From NCBI RefSeq assembly GCF_004210375.1, contig NC_134834.1, forward strand, positions 16,981,027 through 17,045,026: a DNA stretch of 64,000 bases, written 5' to 3'. This DNA is from Tachypleus tridentatus (taxonomy: Eukaryota > Arthropoda > Merostomata > Xiphosura > Limulidae). Position numbers and translations under genes: made by a program. Positions 4,869 to 43,890 of the stretch are shown here, piece after piece. The notes beneath the pieces were generated by a model. The model searched no databases. It had not been told where the DNA came from and was given only the letters and a program-made list of their open reading frames with translations. Numbering within the stretch: position 1 is the stretch's first letter; each line of letters begins with the position of its first letter.

Positions 4869-5368
4869 NNNNNNNNNNNNNNNNNNNNNNNNNNNNNNNN
4901 NNNNNNNNNNNNNNNNNNNNNNNNNNNNNNNNNNNNNNNNNNNNNNNNNNNNNNNNNNNNNNNNNNNNNNNNNNNNNNNNNNNNNNNNNNNNNNNNNNNN
5001 NNNNNNNNNNNNNNNNNNNNNNNNNNNNNNNNNNNNNNNNNNNNNNNNNNNNNNNNNNNNNNNNNNNNNNNNNNNNNNNNNNNNNNNNNNNNNNNNNNNN
5101 NNNNNNNNNNNNNNNNNNNNNNNNNNNNNNNNNNNNNNNNNNNNNNNNNNNNNNNNNNNNNNNNNNNNNNNNNNNNNNNNNNNNNNNNNNNNNNNNNNNN
5201 NNNNNNNNNNNNNNNNNNNNNNNNNNNNNNNNNNNNNNNNNNNNNNNNNNNNNNNNNNNNNNNNNNNNNNNNNNNNNNNNNNNNNNNNNNNNNNNNNNNN
5301 NNNNNNNNNNNNNNNNNNNNNNNNNNNNNNNNNNNNNNNNNNNNNNNNNNNNNNNNNNNNNNNNNNNN
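4869..5368. other. Assembly gap, 500 N
   Basis: Exactly 500 N lie between a SINE head and the left edge of a 67-bp tandem array. The round size suggests a placeholder rather than a measured length. Reading frames that cross it have no meaning. Confidence 0.99.
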
Positions 5369-9883: not shown

Positions 9884-9978
9884 GTCTGTATCGGAACGTC
9901 TGTGTCCAGCGATTCGGCCATGGGGCATAGTGAATGTGACCATTCAGTTCGACTTGAGGAATTAGAGGCAGATCTCAT
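9884..9978 (+). CDS. TBC1D2: Rab-GAP exon a (coiled-coil start)
   Basis: Reads VCIGTSVSSDSAMGHSECD and then SVRLEELEADLM, ending two bases into a codon at CTCAT|GTAAGT, a strong donor. The acceptor chosen is GACAG at 9879-9883; a later AG at 9908-9909 is possible. The phase fits the next exon, whose first G completes ATG. The leucine/glutamate-rich end starts the coiled coil. Confidence 0.7.
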
Positions 9979-11790: not shown

Positions 11791-11970
11791 GATGACGAAA
11801 TGTGAGCTGGCTAAGGCCTTAAACAGGGAAGCTGGCTGTAAAAGCACAATATCAGAAAAGGACCAACTGATTAGGGATTTACACGACCGTATTAGAGAAC
11901 TTTGAGCACAAGGAAAATGACATATGGTACGAAACTAAAGTCGTTCAATTTGAAGACAATAGAGAGTTGG
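11791..11970 (+). CDS. TBC1D2: Rab-GAP exon b (coiled coil), with frameshift and running into array F
   Basis: After the acceptor TTCTTTTAG the frame reads MTKCELAKALNREAGCKSTI, SEKDQLIRDLHDRIREL and then a stop at 11902-11906. With one T fewer in CTTTGAG it continues EHKENDIWYETKVVQFEDNRE, clearly the same coiled coil. This is either a sequencing error or a real break. The exon end is uncertain: GAGTTGG|GTAATA at 11970/11971 is the nearest donor, but its phase does not fit the next exon. That donor-like sequence is also part of the 66-bp unit of array F, whose reading is in frame with the corrected exon. Confidence 0.65.
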
Positions 11971-14255
11971 GTAATAGTTCTGTGCTTATTGTAACTCTAA
12001 GAACTCACGAGTCTACAATAGCATGTAGAGAGTTGGGTAATAGTTCTGTGCTTATTGTAACTCTAAGAACTCACGAGTCCACAATAGCATGTAGAGGTTG
12101 GGTAATAGTTCTGTGCTTATTGTAACTCTAAGAACTCACGAGTCTACAATAGCATGTAGAGAGTTGGGTAATAGTTCTGTGCTTATTGTAACTCTAAGAA
12201 CTCACGAGTCTACAATAGCATGTAGAGAGTTGGGTAATAGTTCTGTGCTTATTGTACTCTAAGAACTCACGAGTCTACAATAGCATGTAGAGAGTTGGGT
12301 AATAGTTCTGTGCTTATTGTAACTCTAAGAACTCTGAGTCTACAATAGCATGTAGAGAGTTGGGTAATAGTTCTGTGCGAATTGTAACTCTAAGAACTCA
12401 CGAGTCTACAATAGCATGTAGAGAGTTGGGTAATAGTTCTGTGCTTATTGTAACTCTAAGAACTCACGAGTCTACAATAGCATGTAGAGAGTTGGGTAAT
12501 AGTTCTTGTGCTTATTGTAACTCTAAGAACTCACGAGTCTACAATAGCATGTAGAGAGTTGGGTAATAGTTCTGTGCTCATTGTAACTCTAAGAACTCAC
12601 GAGTCTACAATAGCATGTAGTTAGAGTTGGGTAATAGTTCTGTGCTCATTGTAACACTAAGAACTCACGAGTCTACAATAGCATGGTGAGAGTTGGGTAA
12701 TAGTTCTGTGCTCATTGTAACTCTAAGAACTCACGAGTCTACAACAGCATGTAGAGAGTTGGGTAATAGTTCTGTGCTCATTGTAACTCTAAGAACTCAC
12801 GAGTCTACAATAGCATGTAGAGAGTTGGGTAATAGTTCTGTGCTCATTGTAACACTCAAGAACTCACGAGTCTGGCCAATAAAGCATGTAGAGAGTTGGG
12901 TAATAGTTCTGTGCTCATTGTAACTCTAAGAACTCACGAGTCTACAATAGCATGTAGAGAGTTGGGTAATAGTTCTGTGCTTATTGTAACTCTAAGAACT
13001 CACGAGTCTACAATAGCATGTAGAGAGTTGGGTAATAGTTCTGTGCTTATTGTAACTCTAAGAACTCACGAGTCTACAACAGCATGTAGAGAGTTGGGTA
13101 ATAGTTCTGTGCTTATTGTAACTCTAAGAACTCACGAGTCTACAATAGCATGTAGAGAGTTGGGTAATAGTTCTGTGCTTATTGTAACTCTAAGAACTCA
13201 CGAGTCTACAATAGCATGTAGAGAGTTGGGTAATAGTTCTGTGCTTATTGTAACTCTAAGAACTCACGAGTCTACAACAGCATGTGAGAGTTGGGTAATA
13301 GTTCTGTGCTTATTGTAACTCTAAGAACTCACGAGTCTACAATAGCATGTAGAGAGTTGGGTAATAGTTCTGTGCTTATTGTAACTCTAAGAACTCACGA
13401 GTCTACAACAGCATGTAGAGAGTTGGGTAATAGTTCTGTGCTCATTGTAACTCTAAGAACTCACGAGTCTACAATAGCATGTAGAGAGTTGGGTAATAGT
13501 TCTGTGCTCATTGTAACTCTAAGAACTCACGAGTCTACACATAGCATGTAGAGAGTTGGGTAATAGTTCTGTGCTCATTGTAACTCTAAGAACTCACGAG
13601 TCTACAATAGCATGTAGAGAGTTGGGTAATAGTTCTGTGCTCATTGTAACTCTAAGAACTCACGAGTCTACAATAGCATGTAGAGAGTTGGGTAATAGTT
13701 CTGTGCTCATTGTAACTCTAAGAACTCACGAGTCTACAATAGCATGTAGAGAGTTGGGTAATAGTTCTGTGCTCATTGTAACTCTAAGAACTCACGAGTC
13801 TACAATAGCATGTAGAGAGTTGGGTAATAGTTCTGTGCTCATTGTAACTCTAAGAACTCACGAGTCTACAATAGCATGTAGAGAGTTGGGTAATAGTTCT
13901 GTGCTTATTGTAACTCTAAGAACTCACGAGTCTACAATAGCATGTAGAGAGTTGGGTAATAGTTCTGTGCTTATTGTAACTCTAAGAACTCACGAGTCTA
14001 CAATAGCATGTAGAGAGTTGGGTAATAGTTCTGTGCTTATTGTAACTCTAAGAACTCACGAGTCTACAATAGCATGTAGGTAGAATTAATTGTGTGCTTA
14101 TTGTAACTCTAAGAACTCACGAGTCTACAATAGCATGTAGAGAGTTGGGTAATAGTTCTGTGCTTATTGTAACTCTAAGAACTCACGAGTCTACAATAGC
14201 ATGTAGAGAGTTGGGTAATAGTTCTGTGCTTGTAACTCTAAGAACTCACGAGTGA
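11961..14255 (+). repeat. Minisatellite F, 66-bp unit, about 35 copies, starting inside exon b
   Basis: Each unit contains AGAGAGTTGGGTAATAGTTC, TGTGCTTATTGTAACTCTAA and GAACTCACGAGTCTACAATA, then GCATGT. The first unit starts at the 3' end of exon b (GACAATAGAGAGTTGG). Since 66 is 22 codons, most units stay open and would encode RELGNSSVLIVTLRTHESTI plus AC repeatedly; several units have small indels that break the frame (for example near 12095, 12255, 12507, 12625, 12860, 13285, 13540 and 14080). Units come in blocks sharing GCTTATT or GCTCATT. Whether any of it is translated is unknown. Confidence 0.95.
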
Positions 14256-16275: not shown

Positions 16276-16604
16276 ATTCCGAGCTTCTTAAATTGTAGAT
16301 GCATTATTAGAGTAGCAATCGACCCTTGGCACGGAGGATGGGTGATAGGAAGCTAGTGACCGGTTATCATCTCTCTGTCCACTTGATTAAAATTACGAAC
16401 AGAGTCAAGAAGCCATAGTAGGTTGACCCTAAATAGAAAATAGAAATCGTTTTCTCCACATAACGTCAATGTTCTTGTATAATAGCTATAAATGAAATAT
16501 CAGACTATTATTTGCTTTTAATTCCAATTAAACCTTCAAAGGTCTTATTAAATATATATATATTTATGTAGGCATTCGTCTAATCAAAAACCACCAGCGC
16601 TCAG

Positions 16605-16720
16605 CGCTTCCAGGAAAAGTGTAGAATTCTTCAAAACCTGAACCGTTTTCTGAACGAAGAAGTCATGAAACTGTCTCATCTTCTGAACGAAGAACGGAAC
16701 CACAGTGAGAGACAACATCT
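16605..16720 (+). CDS. TBC1D2: Rab-GAP exon c (coiled coil)
   Basis: Reads RFQEKCRILQNLNRFLNEEV and on through MKLSHLLNEERNHSERQH, a heptad-like coiled coil as seen just before the TBC linker of TBC1D2 proteins. Donor CATCT|GTAAGT is strong and leaves two bases, completed to CTG by the next exon. The acceptor is taken as CTCAG at 16604; an alternative AG at 16597 would add seven bases and change the required incoming phase. Confidence 0.75.
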
Positions 16721-17803: not shown

Positions 17804-20800
17804 AATCGTTGCTAGGATTGTATGTAACAGATGAATCGTTACTAGGATGGTATGTAACAGATGAATCGTTACTAGGATGGTATGTGTAACAGGTGAATCG
17901 TTGCTAGGATGGTATGTAACAGGTGAATCGTTACTAGGATGGTATGTAACAGGTGAATCGTTGTTAGGATGGTATATAACAGGTGAATCGTTGTTAGGAT
18001 GGTATATAACAGATGAATCGTTACTAGGATGGTATGTAACAGGTGAATCGTTGCTAGGATGGTATGTAACAGGTGAATCGTTACTAGGATGGTATGTAAC
18101 AGATGAATCGTTCCTAGGATGGTATGTAACAAATGAATCGTTGTTAGGATTGTATGTAACAGATGAATCGTTACTAGGATGGTATGTAACAGGTGAATCG
18201 CCGTGCTAGGATGGTATGTAACAGGTGAATCGTTACTAGGATGGTATAACAGGTGAATTGTTTGTTGAGATGGTATCTAACAGGTGAATCGTTCTTGCTA
18301 GGATGGTATGTAACAGGTGAATCGTTACTAGGATGGTATATAACAGGTGAATCGTTGTTAGGATGGTATATAACAGGTGAATCGTTGTTAGGATGGTATG
18401 TAACAAGTGAATCGTTACTAGGATGGTATCTAACAGGTGAATCGTTGTTAGGATGGTATATAACAGGTGAATTGTTGTTAGGATGGTATGTAACAGGTGA
18501 ATCGTTACCAGGATGGTATGTAACAGGTGAATCGTTATTAGGATGGTATGTAACAGGTGAATCGTTACTAGGATGGTATGTAACAGGTGAATCATTGTTA
18601 GGATGGTATGTAACAGGTGAATCGTTGTTAGGATGGTATGTAACATGTGAATCGTTGTTAGGATGGTATGTAACAGGTGAATCGTTACTAGGATGGTATG
18701 TAACAGGTGAATCGTTGTTAGGATGGTATGTAACAGGTGAATCGTTGTTGTGGATGGTATGTAACAGGTGAATCGTTACTGTAGGATGGTATGTAACAGG
18801 TGAATCGTTGCTGGATGGTATGTAACAGGTGAATCGTTGTTAGGATGGTATGTAACAGGTGAATCGTTACTAGGATGGTATGTAACAGATGAATCGTTGC
18901 TAGGATGGTATGTAACAAGTGAATCGTTGTTAGGATGGTATGTAACAGGTGAATCGTTACTAGGATGGTATGTAACAGGTGAATCGTTGCTAGGATGGTA
19001 TGTAACAGGTGAATCGTTACTAGGATGGTATGTAACAGGTGAATCGTTACTAGGATGGTATGTAACAGGTGAATCGTTGTTAGGATGGTATATAACAGGT
19101 GAATCGTTCCTAGGATGGTATATAACAGGTGAATCGTTGTTAGGATGGTATGTAACAGGTGAATCGTTACTAGGATGGTATGTAACAGGTGAATCGTTGT
19201 TAGGATGGTATATAACAGGTGAATCGTTCCTAGGATGTTATGTAACAAATGAATCGTTCCTAGGATGGTATGTAACAGGTGAATCGTTGTTAGGATGGTA
19301 CGTAACAGGTGAATCGTTACAGAATCGTTGTAGGATGGTATGTAACAGGTGAATCGTTGCTAGGATGGTATGTAACAGGTGAATCGTTACTAGGATGGTA
19401 TGTTACAGGTGAATCGTTGTTAGGATGGTATATAACAGGTGAATCGTTGTTAGGATGGTATATAACAGATGAATCGTTACTAGGATGGTATGTAACAGGT
19501 GAATCGTTGCTAGGATGGTATGTAACAGGTGAATCGTTACTAGGATGGTATGTAACAGATGAATCGTTCCTAGGATGGTATGTAACAAATGAATCGTTGT
19601 TAGGATGGTATGTAACAGGTGAATCGTTACTAGGATGGTATGTAACAGGTGAATCGTTGCTAGGATGGTATGTAACAGGTGAATCGTTACTAGGATGGTA
19701 TGTAACAGGTGAATCGTTGTTAGGATGGTATCTAACAGGTGAATCGTTGTTAGGATGGTATATAACAGATGAATCGTTACTAGGATGGTATGTAACAGGT
19801 GAATCGTTGCTAGGATGGTATGTAACAGGTGAATCGTTGTTAGGATGGTATATAACAGGTGAATCGTTGTTAGGATGGTATGTAACAGGTGAATCGTTAC
19901 TAGGATGGTATGTAACAGGTGAATCGTTGTTAGGATGGTATATAACAGGTGAATTGTTGTTAGGATGGTATGTAACAGGTGAATCGTTACTAGGATGGTA
20001 TGTAACAGGTGAATCGTTACTAGGATGGTATGTAACAGGTGAATCGTTGCTAGGATGGTATGTAACAGGTGAATCATTGTTAGGATGGTATGTAACATGT
20101 GAATCGTTGTTAGGATGGTATGTAACAGGTGAATCGTTGCTAGGATGGTATGTAACAGGTGAATCGTTGTTAGGATGGTATGTAACAGGTGAATCGTTAC
20201 TAGGATGGTATGTAACAGGTGAATCATTGTTAGGATGGTATGTAACAGATGAATTGTTGCTAGGATGGTATGTAACAAGTGAATCGTTGTTAGGATGGTA
20301 TGTAACAGGTGAATCGTTGTTAGGATGGTATGTAACAGATGAATCGTTGTTAGGATGGTATGTAACATGTGAATCGTTGTTAGGATGGTATGTAACAGGT
20401 GAATCGTTGCTAGGATGGTATGTAACAGGTGAATCGTTCCTAGGATGTTATGTAACAGGTGAATCGTTGCTAGGATGGTATGTAACAGGTGAATCGTTAC
20501 TAGGATTGTATGTAACAGGTGAATCGTTGTTAGGATGGTATATAACAGGTGAATCGTTACTAGGATGGTATGTAACAGGTGAATCGTTACTAGGATGGTA
20601 TGTAACAGGTGAATCGTTGTTAGGATGGTATATAACAGGTGAATCGTTGTTAGGATGGTATGTAACAGGTGAATCGTTACTAGGATGGTATGTAACAGGT
20701 GAATCGTTGTTAGGATGGTATATAACAGGTGAATTGTTGTTAGGATGGTATGTAACAGGTGAATCGTTACTAGGATGGTATGTAAAAGGTGAATCGTTAC

Positions 20801-21421
20801 TAGGATGGTATGTAACAGGTGAATCGTTACTAGGATGGTATGTAACAGGTGAATCGTTGTTAGGATGGTATATAACAGGTGAATCGTTCCTAGGATGTTA
20901 TATAACAGGTGAATCGTTGTTAGGATGGTATGTAACAGGTGAATCGTTACTAGGATGGTATGTAACAGGTGAATCGTTGTTAGGATGGTATATAACAGGT
21001 GAATCGTTCCTAGGATGTTATGTAACAGGTGAATCGTTCCTAGGATGGTATGTAACAGGTGAATCGTTACTAGGATGGTATGTAACATGTGAATCGTTGC
21101 TAGGATGGTATGTAACAGGTGAATCGTTCCTAGGATGTTATGTAACAGGTGAATTGTTGCTAGGATGGTATGTTACAGGTGAATCGTTACTAGGATTGTA
21201 TGTAACAGGTGAATCGTTGTTAGGATGGTATGTAACAGATGAATCGTTGCTAGGATGGTATGTAACAAGTGAATCGTTGTTAGGATGGTATGTAACAGGT
21301 GAATCGTTGTTAGGATGGTATGTAACAGATGAATTGTTGTTAGGATGGTATGTAACATGTGAATCGTTGTTAGGATGGTATGTAACAGGTGAATCGTTGC
21401 TAGGATGGTATGTAACAGGTA
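17804..21421 (+). repeat. Minisatellite B, 30-bp unit, about 120 copies
   Basis: Unit phrases are GGATGGTATGTAACAGGTGA and ATCGTTACTA, with variants TTGCTA, TTGTTA and TTCCTA, and AGAT, AAGT or ATGT in place of AGGT. Indel-bearing units cluster at 18195-18300 and 18745-18815; the rest is regular. As 30 is ten codons, both strands stay open for hundreds of codons (YVTGESLLGW on +, LLHTILVTIH on -), which explains a 751-codon and a 561-codon frame without implying a protein. It fills most of the intron between exons c and d and ends 40 bp before exon d. The last unit ends AACAGGTAAACT. Confidence 0.97.
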
Positions 21422-21460: not shown

Positions 21461-21593
21461 GACATTGTTTGAGTTGCAGGAAGAGATCGAACAGTTCGAG
21501 AGAGATTACGTCTTCCTCCTCCAGTCTTCCATCAGATTCACATTTCGAGATGGTTGCGAAATGATGGAAGTTTATCAATACGGTGTAGACAGG
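21461..21593 (+). CDS. TBC1D2: Rab-GAP exon d, whose 3' end seeds the 41-bp array
   Basis: Acceptor CTCCTTAG, first base completes CTG, then TLFELQEEIEQFERDYVFLL, QSSIRFTFRDGCEMMEV, YQYGVDR and donor AGG|GTAAGT. The exon ends in phase 0 and joins directly to the next exon. It sits alone between array B (ends 21421) and array C. Its last 21 bases (YQYGVDR codons) are the exonic half of every unit in array C. A 751-codon frame that runs from array B into this exon uses a different frame and is not the protein. Confidence 0.85.
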
Positions 21594-24500
21594 GTAAGTA
21601 GACAAATACGGTGTGGACAGGGTAAGTAGACTTTACCTCATTATCAATACGGTGTAGACAGGGTAAGCAGACTTTAGCTCATTATCAATACGGTGTAGAC
21701 AGGGTAAGCAGACTTTAGCTCATTATCAATACGGTGTAGACAGGGTAAGTAGACTTTAGCTCATTATCAATACGGTGTAAACAGGGTAAGTAGACAAATA
21801 CGGTGTGGACAGGGTAAGTAGACTTTAGCTCATTATCAATACAATGTAGACAGGGTAAGTAGACTTTAGCTCATTATCAATACGGTGTGGACAGGGTAAG
21901 TAGACTTTAGCTCATTATCAATACAGTGTAGACAGGGTAAGTAGACTTTAGCTCATTATCAATACGGTGTGGTCAGGGTAAGTAGACTTTAGCTCATTAT
22001 CAATACAGTGTAGACAGGGTAAGTAGACTTTAGCTCATTATCAATACGGTGTGGTCAGGGTAAGCAGACTTTAGCTCATTATCAATACGGTGTAGACAGG
22101 ATAAGTAGACTTTAGCTCATTATCAATACGGTGTAGACAGGGTAAGCAGACTTTAGCTCATTATCAATACGGTGTACACAGGATAAGTAGACTTTAGCTC
22201 ATTATCAATACGTGGTGTACGGTGTAGACAGGGTAAGCAGACTTTAGCTCATTATCAATACGGTGTAGACAGGGTAAGCAGACTTTAGCTCATTATCAAT
22301 ACGGTGTGGACAGGGTAAGTAGACAAATACGGTGTGGACAGGGTAAGTGGACAGGGAGGCTTTAGCTCATTATCAATACGGTGTGGACAGGGTAAGTAGA
22401 CTTTAGCTCATTATCAATACGATGTGGTCAGGGTAAGTAGACTTTAGCTCATTATCAATACGATGTGGTCAGGGTAAGTAGACTTTAGCTCATTATCAAT
22501 ACGGTGTAGACAGGGTAAGCAGACTTTAGCTCATTATCAATACGGTATAGACAGGGTAAGTAGACTTTAGCTCATTATCAATACGGTGTGGACAGGGTAA
22601 GTAGACTTTAGCTCATTACCAATCACAGGTGTGGTCAGGGTAAGTAGACTTTAGCTCATTATCAATACGGTGTAGACAGGGTAAGTAGACTTTAGCTCAT
22701 TATCAATACGGGTGTAGACAGGGTAAGTAGACTTTAGCTCATTATCAATACGGTGTAGACAGGATAAGTAGACTTTAGCTTATTATCAATACAGTGTAGA
22801 CAGGGTAAGTAGACTTTAGCTCATTATCAATACGGTGTAGACAGGGTAAGTAGACTTTAGCTCATTATCAATACGGTGTAGACAGGGTAAGTAGACTTTA
22901 GCTCATTATCAATACGGTGTAGACAGGGTAAGTAGACTTTAGCTCATTATCAATACGGTGTAGACAGGGTAAGTAGACTTTAGCTCATTATCAATACGCT
23001 GTAGACAGGGTAAGTAGACTTTAGCTCATTACCAATACAGTGTAGACAGGGTAAGTAGACTTTAGCTTATTATCAATACGGTGTAGACAGGGTAAGTAGA
23101 CTTTAGCTCATTACCAATACGGTGTAGACAGGGTAAGTAGACTTTAGCTCATTATCAATACGGTATAGACAGGATAAGTAGACTTTAGCTCATTATCAAT
23201 ACGGTGTAGACAGGGGTAAGTAGACTTTAGCTCATTATCAATACGGTATAGACAGGATAAGTAGACTTTAGCTCATTATCAATACGGTGTAGACAGGGTA
23301 AGTATACTTTAGCTCATTATCAATACGGTGTAGACAGGGTAAGTATACTTTAGCTCATTACCAATACAGTGTAGACAGGGTAAGTAGACTTTAGCTTATT
23401 ATCAATACGGTATAGACAGGATAAGTAGACTTTAGCTCATTATCAATACGGTGTAGACAGGGTAAGTAGACTTTAGCTCATTATCAATACGGTATAGACA
23501 GGATAAGTAGACTTTAGCTCATTATCAATACGGTGTAGACAGGGTAAGTATACTTTAGCTCATTACCAATACAGTGTGGACACGGTAAGTAGACTTTAGC
23601 TTATTATCAATACGGTATAGACAGGGTAAGTAGACTTTAGCTCATTACCAATACGGTGTGGTCAGGGTAAGTAGACTTTAGCTCATTATCAATACGATGT
23701 AGACAGGGTAAGTATACTTTAGCTCATTACCAATACAGTGTGGACAGGGTAAGTAGACTTTAGCTCATTATCAATACGGTGTAGACAGGATAAGAAGACT
23801 TTAGCTCATTATCAATACGGTGTAGACAGGATAAGTAGACTTTAGCTCATTATCAATACGGTGTAGACAGGATAAGTAGACTTTAGCTCATTATCAATAC
23901 GGTGTAGACAGGATAAGAAGACTTTAGCTCATTATCAATACGGTGTAGACAGGATAAGTAGACTTTAGCTCATTATCAATACGGTGTAGACAGGGTAAGT
24001 ATACTTTAGCTCATTATCAATACGGTGTAGACAGGATAAGAAGACTTTAGCTCATTATCAATACGGTGTAGACAGGATAAGTAGACTTTAGCTCATTATC
24101 AATACGGTGTAGACAGGATAAGAAGACTTTAGCTCATTATCAATACGGTGTAGACAGGATAAGTAGACTTTAGCTCATTATCAATACGGTGTAGACAGGG
24201 TAAGTATACTTTAGCTCATTATCAATACGGTGTGGACAGGGTAAGTAGACTTTAGCTCATTATCAATACGGTGTGGACAGGGTAAGTATACTTTAGCTCA
24301 TTATCAATACGATGTGGTCAGGGTAAGTAGACTTTAGCTCATTATCAATACGGTGTAGACAGGGTAAGTAGACTTTAGCTCATTATCAATACGGTGTAGA
24401 CAGGGTAAGTAGACTTTAGCTTATTATCAATACGGTGTAGACAGGGTAAGTATACTTTAGCTCATTATCAATACGGTGTAGACAGGGTAAGTAGACTTTA

Positions 24501-25202
24501 GCTCATTATCAATACGGTGTAGACAGGATAAGAAGACTTTAGCTCATTATCAATACGGTGTAGACAGGATAAGTAGACTTTAGCTCATTATCAATACGGT
24601 GTAGACAGGGTAAGTATACTTTAGCTCATTATCAATACGGTGTGGACAGGGTAAGTAGACTTTAGCTCATTATCAATACGGTGTGGACAGGGTAAGTATA
24701 CTTTAGCTCATTATCAATACGGTGTGGTCAGGGTAAGTAGACTTTAGCTCATTATCAATACGGTGTAGACAGGGTAAGTATACTTTAGCTCATTATCAAT
24801 ACGGTGTGGACAGGGTAAGTAGACTTTAGCTCATTATCAATACGGTGTAGACAGGGTAAGTAGACTTTAGCTCATTATCAATACAGTGTAGACAGGGTAA
24901 GTAGACTTTAGCTCATTATCAATACAGTGTAGACAGGGTAAGTAGACTTTAGCTCATTATCAATACGGTGTAGACAGGGTAAGTAGACTTTAGCTCATTA
25001 TCAATACGGTGTAGACAGGGTAAGTAGACTTTAGCTCATTACCAATACGGTGTGGTCAGGGTAAGTAGACTTTAGCTCATTATCAATACGGTGTGGTCAG
25101 GGTAAGTAGACTTTAGCTCATTATCAATACGGTGTAGACAGGGTAAGTAGACTTTAGCTCATTATCAATACGGTGTGGTCAGGGTAAGTAGACTTTAGCT
25201 CA
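21573..25202 (+). repeat. Minisatellite C, 41-bp unit made of an exon-intron junction, about 88 copies
   Basis: The first unit is genic: the last 21 bases of exon d (TATCAATACGG...GACAGG) plus the following intron GTAAGTAGACTTTAGCTCAT. This 41-bp block is repeated to 25202. A short first unit (GTAAGTAGACAAATACGG) also occurs at 21780-21810 and near 22320. Most copies keep ACAGG|GTAAGT; others read ACAGGATAAG, which removes the GT. Variants GTGTGGTCAGG, TAAGTATAC and TAAGAAGAC recur in ordered blocks. Confidence 0.97.
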
Positions 25203-25220
25203 CCACAGTTTCAAAATCTC

Positions 25221-28200
25221 ACCAACATTTAAAACATACAACATCACACAATATTTTGACATGACCAACATTTAAAACATACAGCATCACACAATATTGT
25301 GACATGACCAACATTTAAAACATACAGCATCACACGATATTGTGACATGACCAACATTTAAAACATACAACATCACACGATATTGTGACATGACCAACAT
25401 TTGAAACATACAGCATCACACAATATTGTGACATGACCAACATTTAAAACATACAGCATCACACAATATTGTGACATGACCAACATTTAAAACATACAGC
25501 ATCACACGATATTGTGACATGACCAACATTTAAAACATACAGCATCACACAATATTGTGACATGACCAACATTTAAAAATACATACAGCATCACACGATA
25601 TTGTGACATGACCAACATTTAAAACATACAGCATCACACAATATTGTGACGCGACCAACATTTAAAAACATACAACATCACACGATATTTTGACATGACC
25701 AACATTTAAAACATACAACATCACAATAATATTGTGACATGACCAACATTTAAAACATACAACATCACACGATATTGTGACATGACCAACATTTAAAACA
25801 TACAACATCACACAATGATATTGCGGACATGACCAACATTTAAAACATACAGCATCACACAATGTTGTGACATGACCAACATTTAAAACATACAACATCA
25901 CACAATATTGTGACATGACCAACATTTAAAAACATACAGCATCACACAATATTGTGACATGACCAACATTTAAAAACATACAACATCACACAATATTGTG
26001 ACATGACCAACATTTAAAACATACAACATCACACAATATTGTGACATGACCAACATTTAAAACATACAACATCACACGATATTTTGACATGACCAACATT
26101 TAAAACATACAACATCACACAATATTGTGACATGACCAACATTTAAAACATACAACATCACACGATATTGTGACATGACCAACATTTAAAACATACAACA
26201 TCACACGATATTGTGACATGACCAACATTTAAAACATACAGCATCACACAATATTGTGACATGACCAACATTTAAAACATACAACATCACACAATATTGT
26301 GACATGACCAACATTTAAAACATACAACATCACACAATATTGTGACATGACCAACATTTAAAACATACAACATCACACGATATTGTGATCTGATCAACGT
26401 TTGAAACATACAACATCACACGATATTTTGACATGACCAACATTTAAAACATACAACATCACACGATATTTTGACATGACCTACGTTTGAAACATACAAC
26501 ATCACACGATATTTTGACATGACCAACATTTAAAACATACAACATCACACGATATTTTGACATGACCAACATTTAAAACATACAGCATCACACAATATTG
26601 TGACATGACCAACATTTAAAACATACAACATCACACGATATTTTGACATGACCAACATTTAAAACATACAACATCACACAATATTGTGACATGATCAACG
26701 TTTGAAACATACAACATCACACGATATTTTGACATGACCAACATTTAAAACATACAACATCACACGATATTTTGACATGACCAACATTTAAAACATACAG
26801 CATCACACGATATTGTGACATGACCAACATTTAAAACATACAGCATCACACAATATTGTGACATGACCAACATTTAAAAAATACATGCAACATCACACGA
26901 TATTTTGACATGACCAACATTTAAAACATACAATATCACACAATATTGTGACATGACCAACATTTAAAACATACAAACATCACACGATATTGTGACATGA
27001 CCAACATTTAAAACATACAACATCACACGATATTGTGACATGACCAACATTTAAAACACATACAAAGCATCACACGATATTGTGACATGACCAACATTTA
27101 AAACATACAGCATCACACAATATTGTGACATGACCAACATTTAAAACATACAACATCACACGATATTGTGACATGACCAACATTTAAAACATACAACATC
27201 ACACGATATTGTGACATGACCAACATTTAAAACATACAACATCACACAATATTGTGACATGACCAACATTTTAAACATACAACATCACACGATATTGTGA
27301 CATGACCAACATTTAAAACATACAACATCACACGATATTGTGACATGACTAACATTTAAAACATACATACAACATCACGATATTGTGACATGACCAACAT
27401 TTAAAACATACAGCATCACACAATATTGTGACATGACCAACATTTAAAACATACAACATCACACAATACTGTGACATGACCAACATTTAAAACATACAAC
27501 ATCACACGATATTGTGACATGACCAACATTTAAAACATACAACATCACACGATATTGTGACATGACCAACATTTAAAACATACAGCATCACACAATATTG
27601 TGACATGACCAACATTTAAAACATACAACATCACACAATATTGTGACATGACCAACATTTAAAACATACAGCATCACACAATATTGTGACATGACCAACA
27701 TTTAAAACATACAACATCACACAATATTGTGACATGACCAACATTTAAAACATACAGCATCACACGATATTGTGACATGACCAACATTTAAAACATACAA
27801 CATCACACAATATTGTGACATGACCAACATTTAAAACATACATCATCACACGATATTGTGACATGACCAACATTTAAAACTTACAACATCACACGATATT
27901 TTGACATGACCAACATTTAAAACATACAACATCACACAATATTGTGACATGACCAACATTTAAAACATACAACATCACACAATATTGTGACATGACCAAC
28001 ATTTAAAACATACAACATCACACGATATTGTTTCATGGCCAACATTTAAAACATACAACATCACACGATATTTTGACATGACCAACATTTAAAACATACA
28101 ACATCACACGATATTTTGACATGACCAACATTTAAAACATACAACATCACACGATATTTTGACATGACCAACATTTAAAACATACAGCATCACACGATAT

Positions 28201-28541
28201 TTTGACATGACCAACATTTAAAACATACATCATCACACGATATTGTGACATGACCAACATTTAAAACATACAACATCACACAATATTGTGACATGACCAA
28301 CATTTAAAACATACAACATCACACAATATTGTGACATGACCAACATTTAAAACATACAACATCACACAATATTGTGACATGACCAACATTTAAAACATAC
28401 AGCATCACACGATATTGTGACATGACCAACATTTAAAACATACAACATCACACAATATTGTGACATGACCAACATTTAAAACATACAACATCACTGAATA
28501 TTGTGATCTGATCAACGTTTGAAATATAGAATATGACACAC
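25221..28541 (+). repeat. Minisatellite D, 43-bp unit, about 77 copies
   Basis: Unit phrases are GACATGACCAACATTTAAAA, CATACAACATCACA and CGATATTGT or CAATATTGT. The CAATATTGT version contains the perfect 12-bp palindrome CACAATATTGTG. The array starts about 18 bp after array C with no shared sequence and ends in a diverged copy (GATCAACGTTTGAAATATAG). Since 43 is not a multiple of three, frames inside it are short. Confidence 0.97.
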
Positions 28542-28761
28542 ATTTTGACTTTGACCTGGCCGTTATCTACATGGTATTCCGATGGGTCAACGGGTTCTTA
28601 AGATCCATCAATTATCAAAATAGAATAATCAGAGTTTTGATATTAAACTAAAACAACGCAATAAATGTTTGTTTAGAAGAGAAACATTTATCAGTTGAAA
28701 TTTTTTTATCCGTTAGTAAAAACTCAAATTTCTATGAAAATCCTATTCACGTACTTAATTA

Positions 28762-29021
28762 GGCCCGGCATGGCCAAACGTGATAAGGCGTGCGACTCGT
28801 AATCTGAGGGTCGTGGGTTCGAATCCCCATCGCACCAAACATGCTCGTCCTTTCAGCCGTGGAGGCGTTATAATGTAATGATCAATCCCACTATTCGTTG
28901 GTAAAAGAGTAGTCCAAGAGTTGGCGGTGGTTCCCTCTAGTCTTACACTGCTAAATTAGGGACGGCTAGCACAGATAGCCCTGGAGTAGCTTTGTGCGAA
29001 ATTCCAAAACAAACAAACAAA
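28762..29021 (+). mobile_element. SINE family 1, near full length
   Basis: Head GGCCCGGCATGGCCAAACG, anticodon region CTCGTAATCTGAGGG, B box GGTTCGAATCC, body with a short internal deletion near 28930 and (AAAC)n tail. The CGT anticodon loop and head resemble tRNA-Thr(CGT). Confidence 0.92.
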
Positions 29022-29799
29022 TATTTCACGAAAAAAAATTATCTTTAAATGCTTAGTTAACTATCTTTTAAAAAACAAAATCTCTGGCATCGGACCTGTA
29101 GGTCCCAGCCTTATTCTGAAAAGGGCCGTTTACCCAGTCACAGGGTATCTAATCAATCATAGTAAATTTTAAAAATCAATTCGCCAGCCGCCAGTGTAAT
29201 CCGTCCTCGAGCCAATGTCTGGCTCATTTCACTTTCGCTGCTCTCGTCCAGTTCTCCCGTCCTTCCTCTCACTCACAAATACCCCACTCCATTTTTGAAA
29301 TATTAAAAAACAAAGTAAAAATTCCACGGATATTTAAAAATTTTCTCATGTAAGGGGACGAAGAGGAACTACAACGTTCCTGAACACCCCAGTTGGAGAG
29401 AGAATTCTTCTGATTTCTCTCTCTCTAAACTAAACCCCTGCCACGTTATTTTGCGTTTGCGTTTTTTAAAAAACATTCCTCTGTTCTATGTAATGAACTA
29501 AGCCTAATGAACTAAGTCACTTGAAATAAGGACGTTTTATAAAGTTCAGACGTCACGATTACCAAAATATCTCCGATCAGTCGGAAGCTATTATAATCCT
29601 CCTGCCTCAATCCCCCGCAAATTTCAGCATTTGATAGTGACAGGGGGGTATACAGGGGGTGAAAATGTCAAAAGGAAAAGGGATACGTGAAAAGATTCTA
29701 GGCTCGAGTTCCGAGCACAATGTCTCCTGTTTTCCAGTTTTATACGTCATAATATGTCGTTTATTAAAGATTAAAATCGAAAAACGAGTGAGATGGATT
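29022..29799. other. No gene recognised
   Basis: C/T-rich stretch (29180-29290) and AT-rich flanks. It may be 5' sequence of the Penelope-like element that follows, but no reverse transcriptase motif was seen. A GGGTATCTAATC phrase at about 29141 resembles a small-subunit rRNA motif by chance only. Confidence 0.5.
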
Positions 29800-30540
29800 G
29801 TTTTATCCCATTGTTTGTGTTTTAGATACATTGTTTAATGAAAACATTCTTCAGTTATGCCGAGAAAACCCACGTGTAGAGAAAAATATATCCCACAAAT
29901 TAAAACATCACGAAACCATATACTGCTGTATACCATATATTCCCGACATCAGCAGAAATGTAACCAACATTTGGCAAAAACTAGTAAAAAATATGACATT
30001 CCAGTTAATACCAAATTTATTCAAAAACCAGGCACAAAACTGAGGTCTATACTATGTAAAAACTACACTGGCAAACACCACACCAACGTTATTTATAAAA
30101 TACAACATGATTATTGCCACGACTTCTATATTGGAGAAACAAGTAGAAAAATGGAAACCAGATTCAAAGAACATAAAAAGTCACCTTCACACGTTTTCGA
30201 ACACTGCAAATCAAATAAACACAACATAACCATAGAAAACACTCAGATACTAAATAAAGAAACAAACATAAACAAACGCAAAATTAAAAAAGCCTTACTT
30301 ATACAACAAATCAAGCCCAAAATAAACCAATACAAAGGAACACCTTTATACCTATATTAATAAATATATCCAACAGCTAAGCACGCCCTCTACATTCCGA
30401 CACTCAGTTACGCAACCCCTTTCAAACATATGGTCAGCTATCGGTCAGTTACCTCTTCCTTTCTTTGTGAACCTGACGATGACCGAAGACGTTGTTCGCT
30501 CCTCTACGTAAAATAATAATAATTTCGAAACCATTATTCA
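29800..30540 (+). mobile_element. Penelope-like element 3' part with GIY-YIG domain
   Basis: An open frame at 29857-30357 (167 codons) ends in a GIY-YIG endonuclease: VIYKIQHDYC, DFYIGETSRKMETRFKEHKK, VFEHCKSNKHNITIENTQIL, and a lysine-rich end. GIY, YIG and the following arginine (METRF) are all kept, as is the EH before the central region. This is the carboxy-terminal endonuclease of Penelope-like retroelements, used to cut the target. The reverse transcriptase half is absent. After the stop comes a tail, TGACGATGACCGAAGACG and GTTGTTCGCTC, shared with a second copy at 48480-48625. Confidence 0.85.
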
Positions 30541-30568
30541 TTGTTGATCAGTTCTTATCATGTAATGA

Positions 30569-30660
30569 TCAGGCGTGGCCCAACGGTTAGCGTACCCAGA
30601 CTGTGAATTTTAATATTCAGGGTCCGAATATCCAGTTTCTGCTTAAAGGTGTTAAACGCA
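30569..30660 (+). mobile_element. tRNA-derived SINE head, family 5
   Basis: GGCGTGGCCCAACGGTTAGC resembles an A box and AGGGTCCGAATATCC a B box. Similar heads occur at 42001 and, reversed, at 48660. Confidence 0.5.
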
Positions 30661-30686
30661 TTAGGACTATAGATACACGACAAGAG

Positions 30687-30961
30687 GGCCCGGCATGGCC
30701 AGGTGGTTAAGTCACACGACTCGTAATCTGAGGGGTGCGAGTTCGAATCCCCGTCACACCAAATTTGCTCGCCCTTTCAGCTGTGAGGGCGTTATAACGT
30801 GACGGTCGATCCCACTGTTCGTTTGTAAAAATGTAGCCCAAGAATTGGCAGTGGGTGGTGATGACTAGCTGCCTTCCCTCTAGTCTTACACTGCTAAATT
30901 ATGGAGCTAGCGCAGATAGATCTCGTGTAGCTTTGCGCGAAATTCAAAACAAACAAACAAA
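30687..30961 (+). mobile_element. SINE family 1, full length
   Basis: GGCCCGGCATGGCCAGGTGG head, B box AGTTCGAATCC, complete body and (AAAC)n tail. Confidence 0.93.
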
Positions 30962-31330
30962 TTTGCTACTATTTTACGAAACGTCACCTAGCGTGGAAAT
31001 TGGAAAACAATATCAGTTCAAACTGTCATATTTATTTATTTGTTAGGATATCTGTATCTCAGCCACTCAATAATAAGGTTTCATTTCAAAAATATCCTTA
31101 CGAAATAAATGAGTTTCAAACAAAACATTCCAACGTTGACTGACTGTGTGATACTCTTGTTAGTTCTTCTAGAATATCACAAGAATGTGTGAAAATAATG
31201 TCACTAGTTTTTGTTTATCGAAATGTTTTCTTTAGGATATCCCACCTCAAAACATAAGTATGATTCGTAAGTATGGTGAGAAATTCCACCATGTGGAAGA
31301 CAGGGGAATTGGAAATGATAAGAATGCGAT

Positions 31331-31593
31331 TTTGTAGTAGGCTTAATGTTACGATTCATCGCATGCATTCATTTTAAAGTAGGCTTAGTGTAATTAGGAT
31401 TCAACGTACGGTGTAACGAGTGACTTTTAAATTCGAAAAATAGAATTAGAAAAACAAAACACAAAAAAACACCATTGCACTTGACGATAGAGAATCATAT
31501 TTTGTAGTAGGCTTAATGTTACGATTCATCGCATGCATTTATTTTAAAGTAGGCTTAGTGTAATTAGAATTCAACGTACGGTGTAACGAGTGA
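31331..31593 (+). repeat. 93-bp direct duplication, 170 bp apart
   Basis: 31331-31423 and 31501-31593 start TTTGTAGTAGGCTTAATGTT and end GGTGTAACGAGTGA, with about two differences. The 77 bp between them is A-rich. Confidence 0.9.
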
Positions 31594-31629
31594 GGAAGAG
31601 AAATTTATCTGAAACAGAAAAAAAAAAAT

Positions 31630-31757
31630 GCTCCCTGGTGGCAAAGCTGAATGTATGCGGAACAGCACCGCTAGAATCCGAGTTTCGATACCCGTGACGG
31701 GCAGATCACAGATAGCCCATTGTGTATCTTTGTGCTTATTTCCAAACGTACGAACAG
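31630..31757 (+). mobile_element. SINE family 2 (tRNA-derived)
   Basis: GCTCCCTGGTGGCAAAGC head, GAGTTTCGATACCC B box, then CAGATAGCCCATTGTGTA and TTTGTGCTTATTTCCAAACG tail. Similar to copies at 33611, 41117, 57888, 58108, 58698 and 63256. Confidence 0.75.
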
Positions 31758-31779
31758 AAGAAAATATATTTTAATTTTT

Positions 31780-31982
31780 CAAACATGTTCGCCCTTTCAG
31801 CCGTGGGGACGTTTTAATGTGATGGTGAATCCCACTATTCGTTGATAAAAGAGTAGTCCAAGAATTGGCGGAGGGTAGTGATGACTAGCTGCCTTCCCTC
31901 TAGTCTTACACTGCTAAATTAGGGACGGCTAAAGCAGATAGTCATCGTGTAGCTTTGCGCAAAAATCCAACACAAACAAACA
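31780..31982 (+). mobile_element. SINE family 1, headless body
   Basis: Starts at AAACATGTTCGCCCTTTCAG, just after the family 2 copy, and runs to the (AAAC)n tail. The tRNA-like head is missing, by 5' truncation or fusion. Confidence 0.85.
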
Positions 31983-32201
31983 TTTATTATTGTTTTGGTG
32001 CTGTTATCTTTTGTGCAGTTGATGAATAATGAAACATTTGTTTTCTCTATGATTAAAAATATATAATAAAACCTTATATAACAATTAAACTGAGTTTGGA
32101 TGCAGAATATTTGTGGTTATTAGCCTTCTTGTTGTCTTTTTTTAAAAAATAAAAATTATGTGAACATAAATAACTTAGTTATTGTTTTTTTTCTTTTTCA
32201 G

Positions 32202-32272
32202 CACAAAGCGAGAGTTTTATCTTTACTAGAGAAGGCTAGGAAAGTCAACCCATCCCTTCCCGCTTACGATGG
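32202..32272 (+). CDS. TBC1D2: Rab-GAP exon e
   Basis: After TTCTTTTTCAG it reads HKARVLSLLEKARKVNPSLP, then AYD and donor GATGG|GTAGGT with two bases left over. It follows exon d in phase and resembles the conserved linker phrase (LLEEARKxNPSLPxY) of TBC1D2 proteins. Nothing exonic was recognised in the 10.6 kb between exons d and e. Confidence 0.85.
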
Positions 32273-36193: not shown

Positions 36194-36383
36194 AGTGTCC
36201 AAGTTTATGACGCACGTGGATTCTTTAGGGTTTAAACACTGCATCTCAGACAAGGGTCTCATTCTACACTACATATGTCGCCAGCTTCATCAATTTTATT
36301 CAACGCACCTGATAACGTACAAACAACACGAGAACCATTGGAAGAACTATCTTCGTCGTCATGGTAACAATCTTCAGAGTACG
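36194..36383 (+). CDS. TBC1D2: Rab-GAP exon f (linker to TBC domain)
   Basis: Acceptor CTTTTTTAG; the first A completes GGA; then VSKFMTHVDSLGFKHCISDK, an HYICRQLHQFYSTHL piece, YKQHENHWKNYLRRHGNNL and QST before ACG|GTAGGC. The HENHWKNYL phrase corresponds to the tryptophan-containing block just before the TBC domain in family members. Ends in phase 0. Confidence 0.85.
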
Positions 36384-37766: not shown

Positions 37767-37919
37767 AAAGAATTGAAAAGTCTCGTGCGTGGAGGAATTC
37801 CTTCTCATCTTCGACATCTTGTTTGGAGCGCCCTCTGTCGACAAAAAGTGAAAGATGTAATAATTGAAAAAGGATGTCATTATTATAACAACCTCTGCAG
37901 TTTGGCCCCTGAATCAGAG
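37767..37919 (+). CDS. TBC1D2: Rab-GAP exon g (TBC domain start)
   Basis: Phase-0 exon of 51 codons reading KELKSLVRGGIPSHLRHLVW, then SALCRQKVKDVIIEKGCHYY and NNLCSLAPESE. The LVRGGIPxxLRxxVW phrase is the first TBC motif. Donor GAG|GTATTT. Confidence 0.9.
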
Positions 37920-38100
37920 GTATTTGGAAATCAAAAATGATTTTATACATTCTGAGCAACTACTTAAAAATTTACGTTTGTAGTTAAAATCATGTTTATC
38001 TTCTCGTGGTCTTTAGAAAATGACTCCTTCCTTTATTATATACCATTTTAGTATATTTTGATGTTTAATATTATTTTTTCTTCTTTTTTACAACGAAAAG

Positions 38101-38190
38101 GTGGTTTCCGAAAACAGACGACAAATAGGATTAGACTTGCTACGAACAATTCCAAATAACGTTCGTTTCAGTGACCCGAATGCTGATGGG
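38101..38190 (+). CDS. TBC1D2: Rab-GAP exon h (arginine-finger motif)
   Basis: Thirty codons reading VVSENRRQIGLDLLRTIPNN and then VRFSDPNADG. IGLDLLR is the IxxDxxR motif carrying the catalytic arginine finger of TBC domains, intact. Phase 0 on both sides; donor GGG|GTAAGC. Confidence 0.92.
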
Positions 38191-38389
38191 GTAAGCAAAT
38201 AAAACACAGTATGTAATTATTGGAATATGGATATTATTAATAACAAAAACAAATTTCGTATTAAAAGTCGTATAGATTCAATATTGTTCATATCTCGGTG
38301 TTTATTTCTGTTATTGTTTTAAATGATATGTTAAAATTTATTCAACAATATATCTAACAATGATATAACAGCAGAATATCACACATTTA

Positions 38390-38638
38390 GGCCCGGCATG
38401 GCCAGGTGGGTTATGGCGTTCGACTCCCGCTCACATCAAACATGGTCGCCCTTTAAGCCGTGGGGCGTTATAATGTAATGGTCAATCCCACTATTCTTTG
38501 GTACAAGAGTAGCCCAAGGGTTGGCGGTAGGTAGCGATGACTAGCTGCATTCCCTCTAGCCTTACACTACTAAATTAGGGACGGCTAGCACAGATAGCCC
38601 TCGTGTAGCTTTGCGCGAAATTCAAAAACAAACAAACG
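38390..38638 (+). mobile_element. SINE family 1, internal deletion in head
   Basis: Head GGCCCGGCATGGCCAGGTGG, but the anticodon-to-B-box part is shortened (GACTCCCGCTCACATC). The body and (AAAC)n tail are complete. Confidence 0.88.
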
Positions 38639-39444
38639 AACACGCCATTTATCCGATATTAATAAAGATAAAGTATCGTTGTCTTTGTAAACAATTACAT
38701 GGCACTATGTCAATAATAAAAATTACATCGGTATTATTTTGTACTGTTTCATAATATCAAAAGAAGGTAACAGGAGTAACAGTAGATGTAATTTGATGAC
38801 ACCATCATTCTAACTCCTATAAAGTGTTAAGATTTAAATAACAGCACCTGGTGTTTTGCATATAAAGATAGACGACTGGTACAATCGAACATCTGTTGCC
38901 CATATGATAAACTATTTTCGTGCTCTACCTAAATGTCTAATTTTTTTTTAATATTATTATTACGCAAATGTTTTAAAGGGTGATTCCCCTCCCTGGGGAA
39001 GGCGGTTTATTAATATCAGTTGATAGTTTAATTGTTTAGCAATATAGATACTTAACAAAACTGAATTTTTATCCAGTTTTTACTTCACAGAATTCTTGTA
39101 ATTTGAATTTTTTAGACTGTGAAATTTCAAAATAATTTTATAAAACACTCGTTTAAGAAGAAGGAAAACAATAATGATTCCTTTCGATTTAGAAGTGTTT
39201 TTTTCTGTTGTTGCTGAGACCCCTGTTTCGAGAGTATGTTATTTTTTATAGTAAATGTTGTCTGATTTGAAAGTTTCAAGGTTCACAGTCTCAACCCGAT
39301 ACGGCAGTTCGATATTTTTTAGAATCCATCTTCTTCAACAATCAAAACTACAAAACGTTTTAAATTCAGTTAAGTGGTACAAAATGCTCAGTTATTACAC
39401 GTAAGTTTAATTTTCTTGGATGTAGTTTATTTAACTGTTTGCAG
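38639..39444. other. Intron, nothing recognised
   Basis: AT-rich intronic sequence between exons h and i with no repeat or reading frame of note. Confidence 0.5.
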
Positions 39445-39569
39445 GTTCGAAAGATGCAGGAAGTTCTTCAAGCGTTTTGTCTCCACAACCCAAGTTTAGG
39501 CTACTGTCAAGGGATGAATTTTCTCGTAGGAATGTGTTTACTTTTTCTGGAACCAGAGGACGCTTTTTG
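39445..39569 (+). CDS. TBC1D2: Rab-GAP exon i (glutamine-finger motif)
   Basis: After TTTGCAG it reads VRKMQEVLQAFCLHNPSLGY, then CQGMNFLVGMCLLFLEPEDA and FW. YCQG is the YxQG motif with the catalytic glutamine, so both fingers of the dual-finger mechanism are kept. Ends with two bases of the tryptophan codon; donor TTTTG|GTGAGG. Confidence 0.92.
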
Positions 39570-41631: not shown

Positions 41632-41842
41632 GTGTTTAGTGGCAGTAACTGAGAAATATTTCACACCAAACTACTTTGACCAAAATCTGATTGGTGCTCA
41701 AGCAGACCAGGAAGTTCTTAAGGATCTTTTGAAAGAAAAGTTGCCAAAGTTGCACAACCATTTGGAGTCCAATGATATCGAGATCTCCACAATTACGTTA
41801 AACTGGTTCCTAGCGGTTTTCTTTGACGCAGTTCCATTTGAG
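41632..41842 (+). CDS. TBC1D2: Rab-GAP exon j (last TBC exon seen)
   Basis: The first base completes the tryptophan codon; then CLVAVTEKYFTPNYFDQNLI, GAQADQEVLKDLLKEKLPKL, HNHLESNDIEISTITLNWFL and AVFFDAVPFE before GAG|GTATGT. This matches the middle of TBC domains. Phase 0 at the end. No following exon was found. Confidence 0.92.
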
Positions 41843-42000
41843 GTATGTTGTTCTGGGAAGCCATTTTGTGTCACCATCAAATTTCTCCCGAAATAAGTGC
41901 TATATGTATAAAGTAATTAATAATTTACTCAAGTTGTTAGATAACGATAACAGAGGTTGTGTAAAGAAATTGCCGAGTTTCTTATATTTACGTAATCGAG

Positions 42001-42383
42001 CCGGGCATGGTTCAATGGTTAGAGTTCCAGGCTGCGGATCGGAGGGTTTGAGGTGTGATGCTGTTGAACGCTCTTTGAATTTTCAGCTCTGGGCGCGTTA
42101 TAGGACCAATACGGTCAGGTGATTGTGGAGCTCGACTTGTAATCTGAGAGTCGCGGGTTCGAATCCCCGTCACACCAAACATGCTCGCCCTTTCAGCCGT
42201 GTGGCCGTTATGATGCTACGGTCAATCCCACTATTCGTTGGTAAGAGTAGCCCAAGAGTTGGCGGTGGGTGGTGATGACTAGCTGCTCTCCCTCTAGTCT
42301 TACACTACTAAATTAGGGACGGCTAGCGCAGATAGCCCTCGTGTAGCTTTGCACGAAATTAAAACAAACAAACAAACAAACAC
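42001..42383 (+). mobile_element. Composite: family 5 head fused to family 1 SINE
   Basis: 42001-42118 is GCCGGGCATGGTTCAATGGT, GCGGATCGGAGGGTTTGAGG and a GGGCGCGTTATAGGACC end, a different tRNA-derived family. From 42119 a family 1 copy follows from inside its head (GACTTGTAATCTGAGAGTCG) to the (AAAC)n tail, lacking its first ~20 bp. Confidence 0.75.
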
Positions 42384-42995
42384 CTCCCCCCTTCCGACGC
42401 TTGTTTGAAGTTGTTCCAAAGCACGGAAAGCAAGTGTGTAAGTTATTTAACACTTACTTTACTTATAAAGATTTCCAATAGGTGGCGGCATTTTCACTTC
42501 CAAGGTAAAAAATGTAATGATTCCCAAAATTGTCGCAGTATTTTAAACCAATAGGCATCCATTATTTTGTAATCACGTGTTTGAAACATCCAGTCCTATT
42601 AAAGATTTGTACAATATCTACGTATACTTTCTCCAAACCAAAATGTTATTAAAAACTTTACAGTGAATAACCATTAAATTTTAAAGTTTACATCATTTCG
42701 ATACTAGAGGGCACTATAGTGCTATTAGGTGCATTTCAAACTTTGTTTTTGTAGTCCATTTAAGTATAATTTAACTTTAATCATTCATTTGTTTATTTTG
42801 CCATAGCTTTCCATCGTTTTGCTTTTGCCCTACAGAACTGTATATGGGTTTTTCCAATCAAAAATAGAAAATACGATGTTCAGTCGCCCTGTTAAATAGA
42901 TTGCTGTATTGAATAAATTATTTTATGGTAATAAGGGACAAGTATTTTCACGTAATGGCGTCATTATTGGAAAACAGGGCCTGTGAAATCAGTGT
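42384..42995. other. No gene recognised
   Basis: Unique AT-rich sequence. The next TBC exon was searched for here (a tryptophan-aspartate block after FFDAVPFE) and not found. Confidence 0.5.
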
Positions 42996-43455
42996 GCCTG
43001 TCGTGGTCTGGTGGATAAGGTGCTCCAATTTCAATCATCGGATCGTAGGTGCGAATTCCCGTCAATAAACATGCTCATCCTTTTAGCCATGGGAGCGTTA
43101 GTAGTATGAGGGTTGCGGGTTCGAATCCCCGTCTCACCAAACATGTTCGCCCTTTCAGTCATGAGGGCGTTATAATGTGACGGTCAATCCCATTATTTGT
43201 TGGTAAAAGAGTAGCCCAAGAGTTGGCGGTGGGTGATGATGACTAGCTGCCTTCCCTCTAGTCTTACACTGCTAAATTAGGGACGGCTAGCGCAGATAGC
43301 TCTCGAGTAGCTTTGCGTGAACTTCAAAAACAAACATAGAAGCGTTGTGATCAGACGGTTAATCCTAGTATTTGTTGGTAAAACAGTAACCCCAATTAGG
43401 GACGATTTAGCGCAAATAGCACCCGAGTAGCTACACGCGAAAATAAAAACAAACC
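42996..43455 (+). mobile_element. SINE family 1 in three partial tandem pieces
   Basis: 42996-43097: a diverged head and the start of the body (GCCTGTCGTGGTCTGGTGG; ACATGCTCATCCTTTTAGCC). 43102-43336: a copy from GAGGGTTGCGGGTTCGAATC to the tail. 43345-43455: another body fragment (GGTTAATCCTAGTATTTG to AATAAAAACAAAC). Confidence 0.75.
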
Positions 43456-43869
43456 CAGTGAGTAATACGTATAACAATATTATTTTCAGCATGTATTATA
43501 ACATGATACAGAGTAGCTACCTCTAAAATAGCTATTCAAATACGTAACAATACAGAATTAAGTTTTTTGTTGTTGTTTTACTTTCTAAGTAGAACAAACA
43601 ATTATTTTGTTTTTGAAATTACAGAATTGCGTAACTTTCCTTCATTGTGGCTTCATCAGGACTAATAGTGAAGCCTCAATGATGAAATGTTGGCTGAAGT
43701 AATAGTTTTAAATCATAATCTGGAAAGTGTTCATGTCTTCCTAACTTTTATTATCAAACTGTCTAACACACTACAAGTTCTGATAAAAACAAAATATCTT
43801 AACGCAGACATTTTTATGGAATAAAGTCTGCTAAATTACACAATAAAAAGAAACTTTTGACATTTATTA

Positions 43870-43890
43870 CACATTTATTTATTAAGAAAG
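43870..43890 (-). terminator. Candidate polyadenylation signal for the Scabrous-like gene
   Basis: The minus strand reads AATAAATAAATG here, the first AATAAA-type signal seen about 1.0 kb after the stop at 44900. Use is inference. Confidence 0.35.

Follow-up and report, generated by a model that had tools for sequence, protein, structure and literature searches.

How can a gene tolerate dozens of tandem copies of the end of one of its coding exons, when most of those copies offer a further donor site, and which of the donors would then close the exon? The question is raised by a 64,000-nucleotide stretch of the genome of the horseshoe crab Tachypleus tridentatus (C10:16981027-17045026, forward strand; the whole of this stretch is called the window below), in which a coding exon runs directly into a 41-bp minisatellite that spans its junction with the following intron (21572-25202, forward strand). 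We favour, with a probability of about two in three, a reading in which the minisatellite grew in place over the junction and does no harm to the gene since the exon is defined by its first donor.

The Rab-GAP gene and its repeated exon end

The predicted gene on the forward strand of the window is, by homology, a TBC1D2/TBC1D2B-type Rab-GAP. Its TBC domain was recognised by Pfam (PF00566, E 2.2e-34), and the closest of the 40 relatives listed, which comprised only proteins of about 240 to 770 aa and of which nine were aligned, is a TBC1D2B-like protein of Limulus polyphemus (P0062; E 4.3e-221, 88% identity in the alignment) for which an N-terminal PH domain is also listed. The preliminary description of this DNA had likewise attributed the repeated exon end to a Rab-GAP coding exon. 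Three exons precede the repeated one on the forward strand: 9884-9978, 11791-11926 and exon c at 16572-16720 (HSSNQ...NHSERQHL), the second of which ends in ATG/gtacga at 11926 (a slash marks a boundary here and below), an end that fits the Limulus sequence ...ELWHSSNQ.... Exon c joins exon d in phase in the homolog alignment. Exon d itself, placed by tblastn and the homologs at 21461-21593 (133 nt, entered in phase 2 and left in phase 0), ends in ...YQYGVDR and is followed by an intron of 10,608 bp (21594-32201), since the next exon starts at 32202. Homology places exon e (HKARVLSLLEKARKVNPSLPAYDG) at 32202-32272, f at 36194-36383, g (KELKSLVRGGIP...) at 37767-37919 and h at 38101-38190, and homology together with Pfam places two exons of the TBC domain, i (GYCQGMN) and j, at 39445-39569 and 41632-41842, all on the forward strand. 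A direct join of exon d to the exon at 37.7 kb was considered and rejected, as exons e and f lie in between. Spliced at the first donor, exons d to j of the window give 325 open codons. No exons beyond j were seen within the window using the relatives compared, so that the gene could not be followed to its 3' end; Pfam searches of 37918-39443 and 41842-44400 in three frames found no domain. Past exon j, the reverse strand carries a gene with a fibrinogen C-terminal domain (44900-46827; PF00147, E 4.3e-67) that has a coiled-coil-like helical frame upstream as judged by eye, and a reading frame at 55911-56936, also on the reverse strand, resembles this coil frame by eye.

The end of exon d was set by comparison with relatives. 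Eight of the nine aligned homologs, Limulus included, run uninterrupted over the junction of exons d and e (YQYGEDR/HKAKV in Limulus P0062, GNR/HKERV in the spider Oedothorax), and because the homologs place the boundary there we put the exon end at AGG/GTAAGT, in agreement with the ACAGG/GTAAGT first proposed. The ninth, Parasteatoda P0072, carries an insertion starting VSN at the exact position of the junction, which looks like a retained intron beginning GTAAGT.

The tandem array starts within exon d, at 21572, and continues over this boundary. TRF reports a period of 41 bp with 93% matches over 21797-25202, with additional pieces from 21577, and splitting 21577-25202 on an AATAC anchor gives 89 units, the exon's own end included, close to the roughly 88 of the preliminary description, whose account of an exon-intron junction amplified as a 41-bp minisatellite is upheld. 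By this split, units are 41 bp long in 80 of 89 cases and 28 bp in three, with the other six at 36-50 bp; the first step after exon d in the window copy is a 28-bp unit. The end of exon d and the consensus unit have 22 bases in common (TTATCAATACGGTGTAGACAGG), and a unit is accordingly composed of about 22 exon and 19 intron bases, a division that replaces the earlier one of 21 and 20. Chance cannot account for the array itself. Genome-wide, a 27-base piece of the unit has 68 exact matches, every one of them next to exon d at three of its four copies described below, and the 22 exon bases of the unit encode a stretch common to Limulus (YQYGEDR) and partly to spiders and ticks. Because this exon part codes for protein sequence that Limulus also has, the gene gave rise to the array and not the reverse.

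Four copies of exon d in an array-rich assembly

Exon d is present four times in the 2.17-Gb genome: in the window (copy A), at C10:16748380 (copy B), at C10:16873069 on the minus strand (copy C) and at C19:66697034 on the minus strand (copy D). The exons up to and including d are present at copies B, C and D, none of exons e to j was found at these copies within 200 kb of C10 or 30 kb of C19, and a 500-N gap lies in or after the arrays at each of the three. Copies A and B both have arrays of 89 units (3626 bp), that of copy D comprises at least 178 units (7.9 kb) and stops close to the gap, and in copy C the gap falls inside the first unit. Outside the arrays, three compared segments totalling about 5.6 kb show 26 mismatches and 51 gaps between copies A and B; exon d and the array show 31 mismatches and 24 internal gaps between them, 20 of these gaps being single-base. 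Over the same three segments, C and D differ from A by 0.5-1.4% substitutions, and between the two there are 173 mismatches and 160 gaps over 11.4 kb when the arrays are counted, so that C and D are not simply one sequence.

Length differences that break the reading frame are found in the three exons before d in copy A, in exon d in copies B and C, and in exon c in copy D. The length changes of the coding exons at 9884-9978, 11791-11926, 16572-16720 and 21461-21593, and of their copies, sit differently in each copy. Such damage in some exon of every copy, together with the fourfold presence of exon d and the termination of B, C and D at gaps without exons e to j, is what would be expected if the assembled locus were broken or redundant, in which case the array length or the activity of the gene would be misread through assembly errors or pseudogene copies. 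We consider this improbable, as the differences are mostly single bases in runs, located elsewhere in each copy as read errors would be, a pattern that points to redundant contigs with long-read errors left uncorrected; moreover, A and B agree in both unit number and length while D has at least twice as many units, and exons d to j of the window do join in an open frame. The simplest reading of the four copies is that they are unmerged contigs of a few haplotypes with uncorrected read errors, and they may alternatively be true duplicates or pseudogenes; the unit numbers of A, B and D do not tell alleles, paralogs and assembly redundancy apart. Because three assembled stretches have the array at the same exon end, we take it as real, its exact length being uncertain.

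Arrays are common in this part of the genome. Long arrays, defined by a period of 20-100 and a length of at least 250 bp, make up 27% of the window, 25% of the 200 kb of C10 and 57% of the 30 kb of C19. On the forward strand of the window, a 30-bp minisatellite of 120 copies (17804-21420) occupies the preceding intron and ends 40 bp before exon d, a 43-bp minisatellite of about 77 copies (25221-28539) directly follows the 41-bp array within the same intron, and a 66-bp minisatellite of about 35 copies (11960-14253) starts 34 bp after 11926. Of the five 500-N gaps seen, four fall inside or no more than about 100 bases away from such arrays or the beginning of the 41-bp array (at window 4869-5368; C10:16754758-16755257; C10:16872424-16872923; C19:66688412-66688911), and the fifth is at C10:16813504-16814003. 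The 66-bp array has about 35 units in A and B and 13 in C and D, and it is in frame with the preceding exon, remaining open for 820 codons in B (about 35 near-identical 22-aa repeats) and for 337 in C and D (13 repeats); the open stretches are at window 11791-14253, C10:16738732-16741192 and C19:66704949-66705960. That this array might be another junction array, or repeated coding sequence, was considered and rejected, as Limulus fits the exon end at 11926 joined to exon c, and from this alignment the 66-bp array is probably intron. Gene finders may call it a coding repeat. A 67-bp array with the unit ACAG/GTATGT was also rejected as an exon end, no recognisable exon being visible by eye at its left edge in copy B.

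With 25-27% of the DNA being long array, it is less surprising that some array overlaps some junction. By rough arithmetic, in which the number of junctions follows from an assumed gene number, an array about every 9 kb and a few hundred thousand junctions would yield hundreds or more junctions overlapped by an array edge by chance if nothing removed them. Donor-bearing arrays are present at many places in this genome. Tandem triples of CAGGTAAGT occur 393 times genome-wide (168 + 225), against 399 (136 + 263) for the reversed motif, and a genome-wide excess of donor-bearing arrays was rejected on this basis; the counts are of matches rather than arrays and need the perfect motif, which the 41-bp unit does not contain. 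A local test on about 294 kb round the gene and its copies (the window and the C10 and C19 stretches), scored with approximate donor weights, gave a different result: at a score of at least 8, a strong donor-like motif is present on one strand or the other in seven of 27 array families, against a background mean of 1.7, and none of 200 draws reached seven families. At scores of 6, 7, 9 and 10 the observed number was reached in 3%, 0.5%, 2% and 5.5% of draws. Three of the seven families are the Rab-GAP gene's own arrays, and there may be a local link between donor motifs and arrays. The two tests thus disagree, their known differences being the motif used and the small local sample. Three of 14 other donor arrays were examined by eye for stops in the three forward frames, and L038 and L039, which do not start in an obvious exon, were rejected as further arrays on exon ends; for the third, L040, the start was probably not reached. 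Since there is no genome-wide excess and L038 and L039 do not start in an obvious exon, no special mechanism is needed.

Choice among the donors

The 5' splice site of exon d (AGG/GTAAGT, with GTAAGT at 21594-21599 on the forward strand) has the top score among the ten donors of the gene, using a simple consensus score with approximate weights. The donor GT is retained in 71 of the 89 units, GTAAGT in 64 and the donor 10-mer CAGGGTAAGT in 62, and the other 18 units have AT in place of GT. The array donors are therefore not all equal, and the original proposal that every unit carries an equal copy of the authentic donor stands for the majority of units and fails for these 18. Among the 71 live donors, the first included, scores range from 8.8 to 10.5, one being slightly above the first, and 62 have the first donor's 9-mer, so that by consensus the later donors are equally strong.

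Joined to exons e to j, all 70 later donors of the window copy give a premature stop, at codon 57 of the joined reading for 69 of them and, for the second donor (+28), at codon 67 in exon e after a frame shift. The same holds for the C19 array of copy D, in which 175 of 175 later donors give a stop at codon 50 when joined to the exons of the window, used here because exons e to j of copy D are not assembled. The preliminary description had predicted both that later donors would lose the reading frame, as is borne out, and that the stop would be immediate, which it is not: reading on past exon d gives GTA AGT AGA CAA..., and 12 codons are read past the exon before the last of them is the TAG of GGT AAG TAG; the donor at +28 acts instead through its frame shift.

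According to our preferred reading, a 41-bp stretch over the boundary of exon d and its intron would have been tandemly duplicated in place, and slippage or unequal exchange would then have lengthened the array. The 133-nt exon would be defined by its acceptor, at 21460, and by the GTAAGT closest to it, with the first donor used almost always and the remaining array spliced out at the start of the intron. Transcripts from later donors would be rare and would be directed to nonsense-mediated decay. Because the rest of the array would leave with the intron and rare later use would be decayed, the array would be nearly neutral and free to vary in length. Use of the first donor is suggested by homology and by the reading frame.

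Alternatively, later donors may be used enough to matter, in which case a sizeable share of transcripts would bear a stop and be degraded, and the length of the array would tune the amount of protein made. The window offers 71 intact strong donors and the C19 copy about 175, each alternative donor leads to a stop upstream of later junctions, and the equal strength of the later donors itself runs counter to a preference for the first. In experiments with duplicated strong 5' splice sites, the copy closest to the 3' splice site is often preferred, and by that precedent the choice would fall the other way from ours. A precedent also exists in human IFI6, in which downstream units are described as acting as donors (PMC4526556). 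However, amphioxus mirages, a class of junction-spanning repeats, are described as splicing normally, in keeping with first-donor use (PMC3087553, PMC3902484), and we regard appreciable use of later donors at the Rab-GAP junction as unlikely. It is more doubtful still that the number of intact donors, 71 against about 175, acts as a copy-number dial on Rab-GAP output; if it did, U1 would be spread over near-identical sites, the share of decayed transcripts would rise with array length, and the output of the gene would show heritable variation.

The common unit variants differ between copies, which is what separate turnover of the A and D arrays would produce. In a comparison restricted to units with the full 41 bp, which by the split used for it make up 79 of 88 units in A and 119 of 178 in D, units identical to the consensus number 13 of 79 in A and 31 of 119 in D, and a change of the donor G to A is present in 18 of 79 against 1 of 119. 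Variants per column are 0.56 in the donor and 3.75 elsewhere in copy D (119 units), and 3.3 and 2.4, respectively, in copy A (79 units). The array might be kept because it is useful, whether as many U1-binding sites that block premature polyadenylation in a 10.6-kb intron or as a supply of spare donors; in favour of this, the donor columns of copy D vary less than the others, and the 71 sites of the window match the donor consensus well. In copy A, though, the donor columns vary more than the others, including the 18 changes of the donor G, and no spare donor can give an open frame. A useful array therefore strikes us as very improbable.

At this locus a real exon end is followed by a natural series of near-identical 5' splice sites, about 70 to 175 in a row, and the frame is destroyed unless the first is chosen. 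In an animal with long introns, its transcripts would reveal whether splicing settles on the first donor, on the last or on one at random.

Junction-spanning minisatellites in other genomes

Among the papers found, minisatellites that span a junction are already known from lancelets and from one human gene; none of the papers searched joined horseshoe crab, minisatellite and intron. The human case, a splice-donor minisatellite in IFI6 (6-16, G1P3), was reportedly described by Turri et al. in 1995. Its units supply several splice donors, and two downstream repeat units are used as donors to give three mRNAs, according to a later report (PMC4526556). Like the Rab-GAP array, the IFI6 minisatellite offers many donors, but its downstream donors are used, whereas every downstream donor of the Rab-GAP array would give a premature stop. 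The VNTR in intron 6 of TERT, with 38-bp units, is an intronic minisatellite described as affecting splicing (PMC3948165); it does not copy a splice site, whereas the units of the Rab-GAP array carry one.

A close parallel is provided by the mirages of amphioxus, reported from Adh/Adh3, the globins BflGb6 and BflGb9 and troponin C, with similar repeats in PGBD5 (PMC3087553, PMC3902484). As described there, mirages do not disturb splicing, the units of the Adh3 mirage are 10-72 bp long, and the length of the BflGb6 mirage varies by haplotype, with six and three units (PMC3087553, PMC3902484). The Rab-GAP array shares the anatomical features of these mirages, in that exon and intron sequence of one boundary lie within a tandem unit and the units bear the splice signals (GT in 71 and GTAAGT in 64 of 89). 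Junction-spanning minisatellites thus also occur in a minisatellite-rich chelicerate genome, and compared with the three to six units of BflGb6 the array is far larger, its unit number ranging from 89 to at least 178 and its length from 3.6 to 7.9 kb. What distinguishes the Rab-GAP array from the known cases is this number of units, together with the loss of the reading frame with any donor later than the first.
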